Origin: Phytoamicus setariae
Lineage (GTDB): Bacteria > Pseudomonadota > Alphaproteobacteria > Rhizobiales > Rhizobiaceae
DNA: 64,000 nt
NCBI RefSeq assembly: GCF_016722925.1
Contig: NZ_JAEQNC010000009.1
Coordinates: 124,001 to 188,000, forward strand
Direction: 5' to 3'
The notes below the pieces were generated by a model. The model was not told the origin of the DNA. It ran no database searches and worked only from the letters and a program-made list of their open reading frames with translations. A program made the position numbers and the translations under genes. This document shows positions 44,994 to 50,814 of this stretch, in pieces (position 1 is the first letter of the stretch; the number at the start of each line of letters is the position of its first letter).

Positions 44994-45680
44994 TCAAATT
45001 CTAGAAACGCCTTTGTAAATATAGCCATTGCCACGCGCCGTCTCGATAAGATCGCCGTTCTGGCCGTTCTGCTCCAGCTTGCGTCGCAGCCTCTTGATAC
45101 GGGAATCGATACTCCGGTCGATGGGATCTGTACCATGGGCGGGCGCGAGACTAAGGATCTCATCCCTTGTGAGAAGCTTGCCGGGTCGCGTTGCAAAGGC
45201 CGCGATCAGGTCGATTTCGGTCGGAAACAACGGCACTTCGTCGCCATTGGGTTCGAACAGCTTCCATTGCTTCAGGTCGAGGGAAAAGGCCCCGAACGGG
45301 ATCATATCCTCGGCCCTGAACCGCCGACGGCGCAGCACCGCCTCGATACGGGCGTTGAGTTCGTTAAGCGAGAACGGCTTGGTCACATAATCGTCTGCGC
45401 CGATTTCCAGACCCACCACACGATCGACCAGATCGATGGCACCGGTCAGCATGATGATTCCGAGGTCGTGATGCTCCCGCATTCGCCGCGCGATGCTTAA
45501 GCCATCCTCGCCGGGCAGGTTGAGATCGAGAAGTATAAGGTCTACCGCCCCCTCCCCGACCAGTACATCCAGACTCTCTCCGCTGGTCGCACATCGCACG
45601 ACGTGCCCCTGCGTCGTGAGGAAGTCTTCAATCATGCCGCAGAGCGACTGGTCGTCATCGACAACAATCAGCTGCGCCAT
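44994..45680 (-). CDS. OmpR-family response regulator
   Basis: The 228-residue protein has a receiver domain (acidic pocket VVDDD near residue 7-10, phospho-acceptor Asp52 in LLDLNLPGEDG, KPF near residue 102) and a C-terminal OmpR winged helix (about 130-225, ending GNGYIYKG). It is divergent from the hybrid kinase gene at 45927, and resembles the second regulator at 49499-50206 in its receiver (GMIEDFL..QG, LNLPGEDG). It is probably a partner of that kinase. Confidence 0.9.
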   Translation of the reverse strand: MAQLIVVDDDQSLCGMIEDFLTTQGHVVRCATSGESLDVLVGEGAVDLILLDLNLPGEDGLSIARRMREHHDLGIIMLTGAIDLVDRVVGLEIGADDYVTKPFSLNELNARIEAVLRRRRFRAEDMIPFGAFSLDLKQWKLFEPNGDEVPLFPTEIDLIAAFATRPGKLLTRDEILSLAPAHGTDPIDRSIDSRIKRLRRKLEQNGQNGDLIETARGNGYIYKGVSRI

Positions 45681-45822
45681 GGCTGTTTAACCCCTTCTCG
45701 CCCCATTTTTCTCATGCTCCGAGGATATTTCGTCAAGCAGTCTCAATGCAACGAAAAAAGAGACGCCAGGCGGTGGTTGCCGGCTCGTCCGGCGGACCGC
45801 AAAACGACCAGCGACATCGGCG

Positions 45823-45896
45823 TGAAACAAAGCACTCCCATTTTGCCCCGCAGAAGCATTGCATTATCTTGGGGCGACAGGCTTGATACGAAACAA
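45823..45896. promoter_or_regulatory. TGAAACAA-type motifs in the kinase/regulator divergent promoter
   Basis: TGAAACAA at 45823-45830 and CGAAACAA at 45889-45896 lie between the divergent response-regulator and hybrid-kinase genes (45681-45926). The same 8-mer is repeated four times at 50671-50758, upstream of the small exported protein gene. They may be binding sites of one of the OmpR-family regulators. Confidence 0.4.
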
Positions 45897-45926
45897 CAGC
45901 AGGCTCCAGGATGAGGTTGAGAGAGC

Positions 45927-48900
45927 ATGACACGCGCAAAGGCGGGCGGCAACGAGGTAGTACGGCATGGCCGCATCGGGCCGTCGCCGCGATTGCTGCT
46001 GCTTTGTGCCCTGCCGCTTTCCCTCATGATCGTTGCCATCGTCGTCGATCAGTTCTGGCGACAGCAAAAGACGCTGCTGACCGAGCTCGAGCGGGTGATG
46101 AACGAACAACATCACGCGCTGGGCACGCTCGTTGCGGAAAACGACCAGCAACTGGCGCGCATGCGACTGACGATGGTAGACGGGATAGCAGGCATGGAAG
46201 GCCTGTCCAGAATGCGTGCGGGCGAATTCAATCCCGTTTCCGTGAAGCTTCCTTCTGCAGAGGTAAACGGCCTTGAATGGGCCCCCGGCGCCCACAATGC
46301 GGCGCTGGGAAGCATCTTTACGATCCCGGATATTGCGACAAAGCCGCCTGACGCCATCGGCCCGATGGACGCCGCCATAAATCTGCTCTCTTCCCTGCAC
46401 ATCGACCGGAAGGCGGGATCGAGCTCGCATTCCAGCTATTTCCTCTCGGCACAGGCGGATTTCGTCGCCGTCTATCCCGGCCTGAGCCTGCGAGCGATCG
46501 CCTGGGCCAGCGGCGTGGAGCACTCGATCCGCAGTCTCGGCGATCTATTCGCATCCCTGCTCGGCTCCGATGTCTACAAGCTTGGCCTTCCCCAGAACAA
46601 TACTAACCGTCAACCGTATTGGACCAAGCCATATGTGGATGCGGCCGGCTTCGGCATGCTGATAAGCCATGCCGCGCCCGTCTATCTCGGAGACCGCTTC
46701 TACGGCGTTGTCGGCACCGATCTACGGCTGGAATCTTTCGACGCCGTCATTGCACGCATGCCGCAACCCCTCGGGCTTCTGGCCGTTGCGACCGATAAGG
46801 GCGACATTCTCAGCATCAACGGCCGGGCGTTCAATGGCGACCGCGCCAAAATGACCGATTACCTCAGGAAAACCGGAGCGCTGGGTCCCAAACCCCTTGG
46901 CAACATCAGGGTTGGCTTCGAGGAAACTGCCAGCGACTGGGTTCGTATCCAGGCGTCGTCAGCCTCACCCTTCCGCCTCGTCTACGTGTTGCCGAAAACC
47001 GATCTCAATGCCTACCTGTTGCCGCGTTTCGCGCCGTATGCACTGATCCTGCTCGGGTTGGGCGCGACATTGCTCGGCATTTTCTATCTGCTGCATCGCA
47101 CCTATATCGCGCCGAGCTTCAAGCTCGCGGAATATCTGACGCTGCAGGCCGCCGGGGTCGAAACGACAATCCCACCCCTGCCAGCGGGTTGGCGCAAACA
47201 TTTCCTAACCATCGCCGGCATTGTTTCGACGATGCACCGCTATCAGGCCCGCCTGGAGCAGAGCGAGGCGCGGCTGCTGGCTGCCACGTCCAGTCTCAGC
47301 GACGGTTTTGCCATTGCCGACGCGGAGGGCAAACTCGTCTTCTTCAACGATGCGTTTGCCGGCCACCTGGCTGGCGACAAGCAGGCGGATGTCGCGGCGG
47401 GCGTCGACATCGCTTCTCTCATCGATCTCGAAAAATTCAATGTCGACGGCACCGAGGTCGAGTACGAACTGGCCGATGGCCGCTGGATCGACGGATGGCT
47501 CAACGCCATGCCGGATGGCGGCAAGGTCATCCTACTGCATGACATCACCGACACCAAACGCACCGAGCTGCAGATCCGTGAGAGCGAGGCACGCTACCGA
47601 CTGGTGATCAACACCCAGACCGAAATGGTGGCGCGTCATGATCCGAGCGGGCATACGACTTTCGCCAACGACGCCTATTGCCGCTACCTTAGCCTGTCGC
47701 TCGACGAGCTGCTGAACCGCGAGATCAGCGACTTCGACACGATTTTTCCTGATGACCGCGAGATGCACGAAGCGCATCTCGCATCGCTAACGCCGGAGTC
47801 CCCCACTGCGACCATCGTCATCCGCAACGTGCTGATGCCATCAGGCGATATTCGCTGGGAGGAGTGGACGGATACCGGCATCTTCGACGGCGACGGCAGA
47901 TTGATCGAAATTCAGGCGATCGGGCGCGATATCACGGAAAAAGTGCGCGCAGAAGAAGCCCTGAGCGTCAGCGAAGCCAGAATGGCCGCCTTTCTCGAGC
48001 ATGCGCCAGTTGCCATGCTGGCCAAGGACCGCAACGGTATCTTCACGCTCGTCAATCCCGAGACGGTCAAGCGCCTGGGACGTCCCGCGCACGAGATCAT
48101 CGGCAAGCGGACCATCGATATCCTGCCGGCTGCCGAGGCGGCGATGATGGACCGCTCGATCGAGCAGGTGATGGAAACCGGCGAGGTGCAGATCGAGGAA
48201 CAATACCACCCGTCGCTCGACCCGTTTCTCTACAGCATGTTCATCCGCTTTCCCGTACGCGCGGAAAACGGTGAGATTACCGGCACCGGTGTGTTTGCTG
48301 TTGATCAGACCAGTCAAAGACTGGTTGAACTGGAGCTGGAGAAGCAACGCGGCGCACTGCACCAGAGCGAGAAGATGGCCGCGCTCGGTTCGCTGCTTGC
48401 GGGCGTCGCCCACGAGCTCAACAACCCGCTTTCGATCGTCGTCGGCTACTCCGGAATGCTGCATGAAATGGCCAAGGACGAGGCGACGAAGCGGCGGACG
48501 AAGGAGCTTCATGCCGCCGCCGAACGTTGCGCGCGCATTGTCAAGACCTTCCTTTCGATGGCCCGCTCGAAGCCGATTGAAAAGCGCAATGTCTCTGTCG
48601 ATACCGTCATGGACGACGTGCTGGAACTGGCCGCCTATGGGCTGCGCAGCAACGGGATCAATGTGATACGCGAGCGGCTTGTGACCCTGCCGGAATTCTT
48701 CGCCGATCCGGACCAGTTGCATCAGGTGTTCATGAATGTGGTTCTCAACGCCCAGCAGGCGATGTCCGGGATCGACGGCGAGCGCAAGCTCAATGTCAAG
48801 AGCTATCGTGGACGCGGTCACATCGTCGTCGATATCCTCGACACGGGTCCGGGCATTGACGACGCCACGCGGGCGCGGGCATTCGAGCCCTTTTTCACTA

Positions 48901-49499
48901 CCAAACCACAGGGCGTGGGAACCGGTATAGGCTTGTCCGTCTGCCTTCGGATCGTAGAAGCGCATGGCGGCCTCATATCGCTCGATGCCGCACCCGGTGG
49001 TGGCACACTCTGCCGTATCAAGTTCCCGATGAGCCTCGACGTGCCCAAGTTCGGAGATGCCGAGACCGTCACTGATTTCCGCCTGTCGGGAAAGCTGCTC
49101 GTGGTTGACGACGAAGCCGCGATTGGCGAGTTCCTGGTCGACGCACTCGGGGCGGAAGGCGTTGAAGTCACCGCCGCTACCAGCGGCCGCGAAGCACAGC
49201 AAATGGTGATGAGGCAGGATTTCGACGCCATTTTGACAGACCTCAGGATGCCGGGCATCGATGGCGGCAAGCTGGTCGATTTCATCCTCAAGAAACGCCC
49301 GCACCTGGAGGGGCGTATTGTCGTGATGACCGGCGACGCACTGAATGCCCAGAACCGCCCCGAACGCGTCGACCTGCCACTGGTCACCAAACCGATCGAC
49401 CTTGCCTTGCTGCGCGCAGCGCTGCGGCCATTGCTGAACCAAGAGACGACTGCCGCCGAAGAGGCAGCCACCCGCATTGCGCATGGAGGAGTGAACTGA
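45927..49499 (+). CDS. membrane hybrid sensor histidine kinase with dCache-like sensor, three PAS domains and receiver
   Basis: The 1190-residue protein has a first membrane helix (about 23-42), a large periplasmic region of dCache type (about 43-368), a second helix (about 370-390) and three PAS domains (about 448-545, 551-670, 680-795). A HisKA domain follows with His829 in GVAHELNNPL, then an HATPase domain (VLNAQQAM, DTGPGID, GTGIGLSV) and a C-terminal receiver with Asp1105 in LTDLRMPG. Its stop overlaps the start of the second response regulator by 1 nt. It should sense an extracytoplasmic small ligand and phosphorylate one or both OmpR-type regulators. The ligand is unknown. Confidence 0.9.
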   Translation: MTRAKAGGNEVVRHGRIGPSPRLLLLCALPLSLMIVAIVVDQFWRQQKTLLTELERVMNEQHHALGTLVAENDQQLARMRLTMVDGIAGMEGLSRMRAGEFNPVSVKLPSAEVNGLEWAPGAHNAALGSIFTIPDIATKPPDAIGPMDAAINLLSSLHIDRKAGSSSHSSYFLSAQADFVAVYPGLSLRAIAWASGVEHSIRSLGDLFASLLGSDVYKLGLPQNNTNRQPYWTKPYVDAAGFGMLISHAAPVYLGDRFYGVVGTDLRLESFDAVIARMPQPLGLLAVATDKGDILSINGRAFNGDRAKMTDYLRKTGALGPKPLGNIRVGFEETASDWVRIQASSASPFRLVYVLPKTDLNAYLLPRFAPYALILLGLGATLLGIFYLLHRTYIAPSFKLAEYLTLQAAGVETTIPPLPAGWRKHFLTIAGIVSTMHRYQARLEQSEARLLAATSSLSDGFAIADAEGKLVFFNDAFAGHLAGDKQADVAAGVDIASLIDLEKFNVDGTEVEYELADGRWIDGWLNAMPDGGKVILLHDITDTKRTELQIRESEARYRLVINTQTEMVARHDPSGHTTFANDAYCRYLSLSLDELLNREISDFDTIFPDDREMHEAHLASLTPESPTATIVIRNVLMPSGDIRWEEWTDTGIFDGDGRLIEIQAIGRDITEKVRAEEALSVSEARMAAFLEHAPVAMLAKDRNGIFTLVNPETVKRLGRPAHEIIGKRTIDILPAAEAAMMDRSIEQVMETGEVQIEEQYHPSLDPFLYSMFIRFPVRAENGEITGTGVFAVDQTSQRLVELELEKQRGALHQSEKMAALGSLLAGVAHELNNPLSIVVGYSGMLHEMAKDEATKRRTKELHAAAERCARIVKTFLSMARSKPIEKRNVSVDTVMDDVLELAAYGLRSNGINVIRERLVTLPEFFADPDQLHQVFMNVVLNAQQAMSGIDGERKLNVKSYRGRGHIVVDILDTGPGIDDATRARAFEPFFTTKPQGVGTGIGLSVCLRIVEAHGGLISLDAAPGGGTLCRIKFPMSLDVPKFGDAETVTDFRLSGKLLVVDDEAAIGEFLVDALGAEGVEVTAATSGREAQQMVMRQDFDAILTDLRMPGIDGGKLVDFILKKRPHLEGRIVVMTGDALNAQNRPERVDLPLVTKPIDLALLRAALRPLLNQETTAAEEAATRIAHGGVN

Positions 49500-50206
49500 T
49501 GTCCGAAGCCAACATCGTTGTGGTCGATGACGAACCGGGCCTCAGGGGCATGATAGAAGATTACCTGTCGATGCAGGGCTATGCGGTGCAGCCCGCCGAA
49601 AATGGCGCGGCACTCGACCGGCTTTTGGCATCCAGGTCTCCCGACCTTATTTTGCTTGATGTCAATTTGCCGGGCGAGGATGGGTTCTCCATCGTCCGGC
49701 GCCTGCGGAATGCCGGCGAACGGATGGGCATCATCATGCTTACCGGCAATGCCGACGAGGACAGCAAGGTGACGGGACTGCTGAATGGCGCAGACGACTA
49801 CCTCGCCAAGCCTTTCGAAGTCCGCGAGTTGCTGGCGCGGGTGCGCAGCGTGCTCCGAAGACTACCGCCAGCCGCCGAGAAACCTGCCGAAGCTCGCCAG
49901 AAGCTGGCGCTTGGCACCTTTGTCCTCGATGTGGCGGGGCGGCGCCTGTTCGATGGCGGCGGTCTGGAAATCGAAGTCAGCAGCATGGATTACGATCTGC
50001 TTGAGGCATTCGCTCGCCATCCGCGTCAGGTGCTTTCCAGAGACCGTCTGTGCGAACTTGCACATGGCCGTACCCTGGGCGCGGCCGACCGCAGCCTTGA
50101 TATCCGTATCGCCCGGTTGCGCAAGAAGCTGGAGAAGGATCCGACGGAGCCGGCAATCCTGAAGACCGTGCGCGGAGAAGGCTACGTTTTCGAACCCGAA
50201 GGGTGA
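49499..50206 (+). CDS. OmpR-family response regulator, partner of the hybrid kinase
   Basis: The 235-residue protein has a receiver domain (VVVDDEPGLRG, Asp54 in LILLDVNLPGEDG, KPFE near 107) and a C-terminal OmpR winged helix (about 135-233, ending GEGYVFEPEG). It starts 1 nt inside the kinase stop codon, so the two are coupled. It is paralogous to the regulator at 44994-45680. It converges on the small exported gene at 50258, and a 9-bp inverted repeat (50234-50242 with 50256-50264) lies between the two. Confidence 0.92.
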   Translation: MSEANIVVVDDEPGLRGMIEDYLSMQGYAVQPAENGAALDRLLASRSPDLILLDVNLPGEDGFSIVRRLRNAGERMGIIMLTGNADEDSKVTGLLNGADDYLAKPFEVRELLARVRSVLRRLPPAAEKPAEARQKLALGTFVLDVAGRRLFDGGGLEIEVSSMDYDLLEAFARHPRQVLSRDRLCELAHGRTLGAADRSLDIRIARLRKKLEKDPTEPAILKTVRGEGYVFEPEG

Positions 50207-50257
50207 AGTTGATAGAGCACATTGCTCCAAGTGGAACTGAACGGATCCGCTTTCGGT

Positions 50258-50596
50258 TCAGTTCGACGCGATGAGGCAGGCCGATACGATCGAGCGCATT
50301 GCATGCACGGCCACCCGCGTATCGCTCGGTGCCGGGCCGATCGGGTTCGCGACAGCGACGTTCGCCGATGCAACGCCATGTGCAGCAAAATCCAGTGCCA
50401 GGAGGCCCGCGATGGACCGCGTCTTCAAGTTTTCGCGGCTGTTGGACGCGGGAGATGCAATGCCAGGTCCCTTGCTGATTTCGGCACGGGCTACTTCCAT
50501 AGCAGGCAGCATCGCCGCGCCGAGTTCGAAACCGACGACGGCAGAAATAACAATGACAGACACTGCGGCAGCACTGAGGCGCAAGGAAGTGGACAT
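50258..50596 (-). CDS. small exported or membrane-anchored hypothetical protein (112 aa)
   Basis: The 112-residue protein starts MSTSLRLSAAAVSVIVISAVV, a strong signal peptide or membrane anchor, followed by an alanine/serine-rich chain of no known family. Third codon positions are G/C-rich like the neighbours, and GAGAG lies upstream of the ATG at 50596. An array of TGAAACAA motifs occupies the region upstream. Its location next to a sensor kinase recalls FeuN, a small periplasmic modulator of the FeuQ kinase in Sinorhizobium, but that parallel is only positional. Confidence 0.55.
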   Translation of the reverse strand: MSTSLRLSAAAVSVIVISAVVGFELGAAMLPAMEVARAEISKGPGIASPASNSRENLKTRSIAGLLALDFAAHGVASANVAVANPIGPAPSDTRVAVHAMRSIVSACLIASN

Positions 50597-50670
50597 TGAT
50601 CTGCTCTCTGAATCTCGGAGCGCGACGACAACACGTCGGCTACATCGATGGATGCAGATCTAAAGTTCGT

Positions 50671-50758
50671 TTGTTTCATCTGAATGTCGTTGTTTCAAAT
50701 TTGAGCGACCCAAGTGAAACAAATGAAACGAAACGAACAAATTTGAAAGTTGAAACAA
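50671..50758. promoter_or_regulatory. array of TGAAACAA motifs upstream of the small exported gene
   Basis: TTGTTTCA occurs at 50671-50678 and 50690-50697, and its reverse complement TGAAACAA at 50715-50722 and 50751-50758, with the variant TGAAACGA at 50724-50731. An 11-bp perfect inverted repeat, TTTCAAATTTG (50693-50703) and CAAATTTGAAA (50738-50748), is nested in it. The stretch is AT-rich for this genome. It looks like a multi-site regulator-binding region 75-160 nt upstream of the small gene at 50596. Confidence 0.55.
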
Positions 50759-50781
50759 TCTACCGCCTGAGGAGTTCCGCA

Positions 50782-50814
50782 AGCCATCTTGTAGCGCGAT
50801 AGGCCTAGATGGCT
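50782..50814 (-). terminator. possible stem-loop at the end of tenA
   Basis: AGCCATCT and AGATGGCT (50782-50789 with 50807-50814) form an 8-bp repeat with a 17-nt loop overlapping the stop codon of tenA. There is no U-run, so this is a weak terminator candidate. Confidence 0.25.

Follow-up and report, generated by a model that had tools for sequence, protein, structure and literature searches.

In the genome of the rhizobial bacterium Phytoamicus setariae, a hybrid sensor kinase, two OmpR-type response regulators (RR1 and RR2) and a small open reading frame (ORF) form a cassette in which the kinase promoter and the small-gene promoter share a two-part operator, CGAC(A/T)T-N5-TGAAACA. The cassette lies within a window of 64,000 nucleotides (contig NZ_JAEQNC010000009.1, positions 124,001 to 188,000); G-numbers denote genomes, the window genome being G000, and L-numbers denote loci. 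An earlier interpretation made from the letters alone (the sequence-only reading) had linked the kinase promoter to the small gene through a repeated 8-mer; comparison with relatives supports this link and refines the motif to CGACWT-N5-TGAAACA, of which the 8-mer is only the 3' half. It is proposed here, with a probability of about 0.55 (lowered from 0.6 after a site was found outside the cassette in G224), that the kinase and RR2 constitute an autoregulated module equipped with a small membrane or exported feedback protein.

A genome-wide search for the motif, which the sequence-only reading had put forward as a check, finds the exact operator at only two sites in the window genome, the divergent promoter of the kinase and RR1 and the promoter of the small gene (Table 1). 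When both promoters are aligned, the GAC and GAA of the operator halves lie 11 bp apart. Among nine genomes of the genus the exact pattern was found at 11 places, two per cassette in each of the five cassette-bearing genomes and none in the four in which the kinase was not found (kinase present in 5/9, search at 1e-150); one of these four, G001, is only 86% complete. The reversed pattern, used as a control, gave no match in the nine genomes. The eleventh exact site, in G003, falls within an ORF of high codon score and was discounted as a chance match. The RR1-kinase-RR2 cassette was counted in eight genomes, five of the genus (G000, G006, G008, G003 and G005), two of a second genus (G062 and G380) and one of a third (G224), and operator 1 is exact in seven of the eight. 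In G062, which was seen while the pattern was being drawn, the kinase promoter holds the single exact site of the genome. Two genomes were unseen when the pattern was fixed: in G380 the kinase promoter contains the operator exactly, and the kinase-promoter site of G224 carries one mismatch and falls in a likely over-long start of the kinase ORF. Before the small gene, TGAAACA begins 68-82 nt upstream of the ATG in all five genus cassettes and is followed, after about 8 bp, by TTAGAT, TTAGAC, TTAATT or TTAATC, a promoter spacing that fits an activator taking the place of the -35 element. Operators of the PhoB/OmpR type are direct repeats with an 11-bp step and can stand in for a -35 element; the present operator resembles them in its 11-bp direct-repeat step and differs in its half-sites, CGACWT and TGAAACA.

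The synteny check that had likewise been suggested came out in favour of the cassette, as the four genes stand together in all five cassette-bearing members of the genus, the small ORF being placed tail to tail with RR2 (112, 112, 121, 122 and 114 codons) and preceded in each case by a predicted operator, so that the small gene carries the module's own operator, as in an MgrB-like logic. The small ORF looks translated, in line with the sequence-only reading. The window and G006 ORFs are 43% identical across 112 codons with no indel, substitutions counted by codon position favour the third (43/34/56, 46/39/57, 54/46/76 and 48/40/62), the ratio of nonsynonymous to synonymous substitution rates (dN/dS) is about 0.42-0.54 in four pairs that are not independent, and the annotated frame has the best codon score of the six frames in all five genus cassettes. 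The small ORFs of G003, G005 and G008 represent a second type (type B), with 36-49% identity to the member at L044 and 18-19% to the window protein. No Pfam or NCBIfam family was found for the window protein (Pfam at E up to 10), a search that takes in Pfam's model of MgrB. Used as a query, the window protein matched only itself and G006 among 151 genomes, and a profile of the five small proteins at E 0.01 gave matches in 11 of 251 genomes, namely the five in the sample and six weak ones (E 1.6e-4 to 0.0086), with no convincing further member; two of the six were inspected by eye, in G192 and G032, and overlie chemotaxis-type genes. DUF1127 (PF06568) has no match in the window ORF or the four other genus small ORFs, and is matched only by ORFs of G062 and G224 that follow RR2 on its own strand, each 56-57 nt behind TGAAAC in a site with two mismatches. 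The structure prediction of the small protein (mean predicted local distance difference test, pLDDT, of 44.2 from only two sequences) is too poor for use; the protein is probably located in the membrane or exported.

Exact copies of the 8-mer, TGAAACAA, stand at 45823 (+), 50671 (-), 50690 (-), 50715 (+) and 50751 (+). The window thus holds 5 copies, whereas 100 shuffles averaged 1.30 and always stayed below 5; region 50597-50812 (216 bp) has four, against an average of 0.024 and at most 2 over 20,000 dinucleotide shuffles. Genome-wide, single 8-mers have 93 matches and are uninformative alone. Positions and shuffles thus bear out what had been described, four exact copies before the small gene and one exact and one variant copy, CGAAACAA, in the divergent promoter, and the 11-bp inverted repeat is present as well. 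The description of the array has to be corrected in two respects: the copies, said to be two inward-facing and then two outward-facing, are oriented left-left-right-right, all diverging from the centre, and they do not surround the repeat, whose arms overlap or interleave with them. The small-gene promoters of G003, G005 and G008 hold, within 260 nt, the operator and one distant inverted half-site, 238-241 nt upstream of the small ATG (L042-L044), which is exact in G005 and G008 and degenerate in G003.

In the proposed circuit, the membrane-bound hybrid kinase would sense a periplasmic signal and phosphorylate RR2, which in its phosphorylated form would bind the 11-bp direct repeat as a head-to-tail dimer, replace the -35 element and activate both its own kinase-RR2 operon, in positive autoregulation, and the small ORF. 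The small protein would reach the membrane or the periplasm and most likely act back on the kinase as a feedback modulator, a step which, taken alone, is put forward tentatively, at somewhat less than even odds. RR1 would also partner the kinase, either with a different DNA target or as a phosphate sink; the pair of regulators behind the branched design of the sequence-only reading is conserved in all eight cassettes. Direct evidence covers the operator, how rare it is in the genome, the gene order and the constraint on the small ORF's coding frame; RR2 binding, activation, the location of the small protein and the feedback are inferred.

That a single OmpR-type regulator governs its own promoter and the small gene, as had been suggested, agrees with the shared operator, and RR2 fits this role better than RR1. 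RR2 is the likelier binder because its recognition helix reads DRS(L/V)DIRIARLR(K/R)K in all eight cassettes, because the RR1 residue after DRSID varies (S, K or T) and the operator half-site does not vary with it, and because a paralogous system of this genome, encoded among RTX-repeat ORFs, has a regulator that resembles RR2 (52% identity; it carries DRSIDIRVTRLRKK, and DIR(I/V)xRLRKK and TVRG are common to both) and adjoins TGAAACA repeats. RR1 lies next to operator 1 and has an orthologue in every cassette, as would be expected if it bound the operators instead of RR2 or competed for them; this is nevertheless unlikely, given that the varying position in its recognition helix is an exposed one and that the likeness to the RTX-system regulator is on the side of RR2. 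The possibility that the array is an AT-rich coincidence without regulatory meaning could appeal to the fourth copy and the right repeat arm, which are not conserved, and is hardly credible, being already contradicted by an operator that stays intact beside proteins diverged to 43% identity or less and by the empty reversed control. A more serious alternative, still rather improbable, is that the operator serves a wider regulon by way of degenerate sites, which would leave the module not private: with one mismatch allowed, sites outnumber those of the reversed control in each of the five genomes covered (G000 20/4, G006 13/1, G003 17/3, G062 10/6, G224 19/2), and the single exact operator of G224 lies about 20 kb outside the cassette (L110 1686-1703, G224:C14:638185), in a stretch without an ORF scoring clearly as coding, where a further target is possible. 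The one-mismatch sites were located in G000 only, and there 17 of 18 fall inside ORFs with a positive codon score (C1:19996 does not; C34:267457, one of the 17, begins 1 nt into its ORF), whereas the two exact sites lie in no such ORF and no exact site occurs outside the cassette. These excess sites and the G224 site weigh against the proposed module, as do several other observations gathered here. The operator pattern was derived from promoters that it then found, only G380 and G224 being unseen, so that its weight rests on the absence elsewhere and on the cassettes not read before. The array, lack of conservation of which had been named as grounds for refutation, is only partly kept in G006, the closest relative: the 50671 copy remains, as do the tandem half-sites at 50715/50724 with a step of 8 bp rather than 9 bp, but neither the 50751 copy nor the right repeat arm is retained.

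The remaining points on that side concern the small protein. The two types, at 18-19% identity, may be non-homologous, and the type B N-termini are less hydrophobic and have no positive charge before the hydrophobic segment, which makes export uncertain. The kinases of G003, G005 and G008 (L042, L043 and L044) have a periplasmic part about 190 residues shorter than that of the window kinase, the parts behind it being still 55-70% identical; this shorter sensor co-occurs with the type B protein, and the joint change of sensor length and small-protein type amounts to one event on the tree and is only suggestive. The G380 cassette has neither a small gene nor a site after RR2, so the modulator is not obligatory; a short stretch there (L081, after 6932) resembles, by eye, the end of the G062 DUF1127 ORF. 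Across 11 other loci, 346,022 strand-bases in all, there are 11 sites with two mismatches, a rate near 0.004 per 120 bases, but the 19-kb G224 locus has 10 and the G062 locus three (both strands), so that the site before the G224 DUF1127 ORF is weak by itself. In the same circuit the small protein could instead serve solely as output, as an effector in the envelope or secreted, and leave the kinase unaffected. That is possible at lesser odds: apart from the module's own promoter, the small gene is the one exact target in the window genome, its rapid divergence (43% identity in the closest relative) fits a surface-exposed product, and G380 does without it, but it would be unusual to devote an entire kinase and two regulators to a single small effector, and in two outgroup genomes the place is taken by a DUF1127 ORF, of a family reported to bind a sensor kinase (PMC12501420). 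Of the two roles that the sequence-only reading had offered, kinase modulator like FeuN or output, the FeuN-like one is inferred, the protein having no Pfam or NCBIfam match and the gene being missing from G380. Quite improbable is control of the small gene by the paralogous RTX-system regulator on contig C12 through the 9-bp-step half-sites at 50715-50729. Exact TGAAACNNNTGAAAC occurs three times in the genome, once as this tandem and twice about 92 nt before ORFs with Pfam RTX repeats; the tandem nonetheless points away from the small ORF, has a step of 8 bp in G006, and has no counterpart within 260 nt of the small ATG in the three other genus cassettes.

The gene calls of the sequence-only reading, two OmpR-type regulators, a hybrid kinase and a 112-codon ORF, are confirmed by ORF coordinates and Pfam (Table 1). 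The kinase is laid out as transmembrane segment, periplasmic sensor, transmembrane segment, PAS domains, HisKA, HATPase and receiver, and the presence of HisKA, HATPase and C-terminal receiver in Pfam searches makes it a hybrid sensor histidine kinase. Its sensor gives a weak PDC match of 25.4 bits, under the Pfam cut-off of 27, and a structure prediction (mean pLDDT 37.7, from only two sequences) too poor for use. The kinase stop and the RR2 start overlap by one base. RR1 and RR2 are 45% identical, each with a receiver and a Trans_reg_C domain above the Pfam cut-offs, and the phospho-acceptor Asp54 is invariant in 16 aligned regulators.

Table 1. Genes, operators and repeat elements of the cassette (window positions)
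Feature	Position	Strand	Basis or remark
RR1, OmpR-type response regulator, divergent from kinase	44994..45680	-	Pfam Response_reg + Trans_reg_C
Operator 1, CGACATCGGCGTGAAACA, directed towards the kinase, in the divergent promoter of kinase and RR1	45812..45829	+	Exact genome site, 1 of 2
CGAAACAA, variant copy in the divergent promoter, outside the conserved operator	45889..45896	+	Present
Hybrid sensor kinase	45927..49499	+	Pfam domains, hydrophobic segments, alignment
RR2, OmpR-type response regulator, proposed binder of both operators	49499..50206	+	Pfam; near-constant recognition helix in 8 cassettes
Small ORF of 112 aa with a hydrophobic segment at the N-terminus; feedback modulator or output (proposed)	50258..50596	-	G006 orthologue, codon score
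Operator 2, CGACATTCAGATGAAACA, TGAAACA beginning 82 nt upstream of the small ATG	50672..50689	-	Exact genome site, 2 of 2
Further direct half-site upstream of operator 2	50690..50697	-	One mismatch in G006
11-bp inverted repeat, arms 50693-50703 and 50738-50748	50693..50748		Right arm lost in G006
Inverted tandem TGAAACAAATGAAAC, 9-bp step	50715..50729	+	Step 8 bp in G006; resembles paralogous RTX operator
Fourth exact 8-mer copy	50751..50758	+	Not conserved in G006

Eight flanking genes of the window (TenA, Rid, RND, MFP, TetR, GntR and two enolases) had no match around the cassettes of G006, G008, G003, G005 and G062, which leaves the module alone as the conserved unit; TenA, like the RND/Rid/enolase neighbours, was rejected as part of it. 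Searches for RR2-like regulators, made in overlapping sets of genomes, were positive in 21 of 151 relatives at E 1e-60 (six of these at no less than 71% identity), in 4 of 297 family genomes at 1e-75, and in 1 of 21 and 2 of 7 genomes of the other two genera at 1e-85. G039 has a related three-gene set, with an RR2 54% identical and CGACAT-GC-TGAAACA with a shorter step, and was excluded from the counts over eight cassettes. Plasmid records searched with the kinase at E up to 1e-80 gave two Skermanella records covering 41% of the query.

The paralogous system of the window genome is found on contig C12 (L040 5736-10142), where a PAS hybrid kinase and an OmpR-type regulator lie among ORFs with Pfam RTX repeats and a globin; related stretches with tandem sites occur at L060 8030-9303, L065 5959-7220, L047 and L050. 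In the window genome TTGAAACAATTGAAACA or a near form stands 37-92 nt before the globin (L040) and RTX ORFs (L040, L060), and at L065 a site of this type runs across what may be the beginning of another RTX ORF; in G006 and G007, globin and repeat proteins have similar sites in front of them. An exact search for GAAACAATTGAAACA gives 21 places in six of nine genus genomes, with none in G001, G002 and G003, and, with one mismatch allowed, 30 places as compared with 1 in the control; four of the G005 places resemble an inverted duplication and are therefore not independent. One exact RTX-type tandem site (L061 7477, G000:C12:110468) has no RTX ORF directly downstream, the next lying about 3.9 kb on. 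These sites suggest a second regulon for the same regulator clade, which would be reached through an RTX/globin operator.

Among known systems, the enterobacterial PhoQ/PhoP-MgrB system offers the same logic, MgrB being reported as a small membrane protein that belongs to the PhoQ/PhoP regulon and inhibits PhoQ (PMC8404706). The cassette differs from it in its small proteins of 112-122 aa (MgrB has 47), in the absence of a family match, in its hybrid kinase, its two regulators and its two exact target promoters. In the rhizobial FeuN/FeuQ/FeuP system of Sinorhizobium, compared here by its description, the small periplasmic protein FeuN binds and restrains FeuQ (PMC12486126); the window kinase, in contrast, is a hybrid with PAS domains, and the small gene is absent from one cassette. 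A protein of the FeuN kind would be expected to be needed for viability alongside its kinase, and the G380 kinase, with no small gene after RR2, speaks against such a need here. In Agrobacterium the kinase VirA is a hybrid, and one half of the vir box is TTGAAAC-like. VirA/VirG resembles the cassette in its membrane kinase, OmpR-type regulator and autoregulation, VirG binding a 12-bp vir box (PMC4086400); RR2 and RR1 score only 172.8 and 161.6 bits on the VirG NCBIfam equivalog, whose cut-off is 344 bits, and the targets differ. DUF1127 proteins are reported to bind the kinase PhoR in Agrobacterium (PMC12501420), a parallel for a small protein acting on a sensor kinase in view of the DUF1127 ORFs after RR2 in G062 and G224; the window protein differs in lacking a DUF1127 match and in having an N-terminal hydrophobic segment. 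No published account of the cassette was found in literature searches, which is weak evidence of novelty since the cassette is nameless.

It may be speculated, at odds that leave the idea doubtful, that the cassette is a closed module, in which a hybrid kinase and two regulators would control only themselves and one small kinase-modulating protein, the modulator having been exchanged between lineages (two membrane types, DUF1127 or none) along with changes of the periplasmic sensor. If so, its output would be the phosphorylation state, the small protein itself, or the targets of RR1. Many response regulators control many promoters; a regulator with its exact operator at two places of a genome, one of them its own promoter, would be a compact case for the study of self-directed sensors and of how small proteins tune kinases. 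An unclassified family of small proteins gains a partner hypothesis, the operator is directly testable, and the cassettes, whose small gene is of type A, of type B or of the DUF1127 kind or is missing altogether, amount to a natural experiment.

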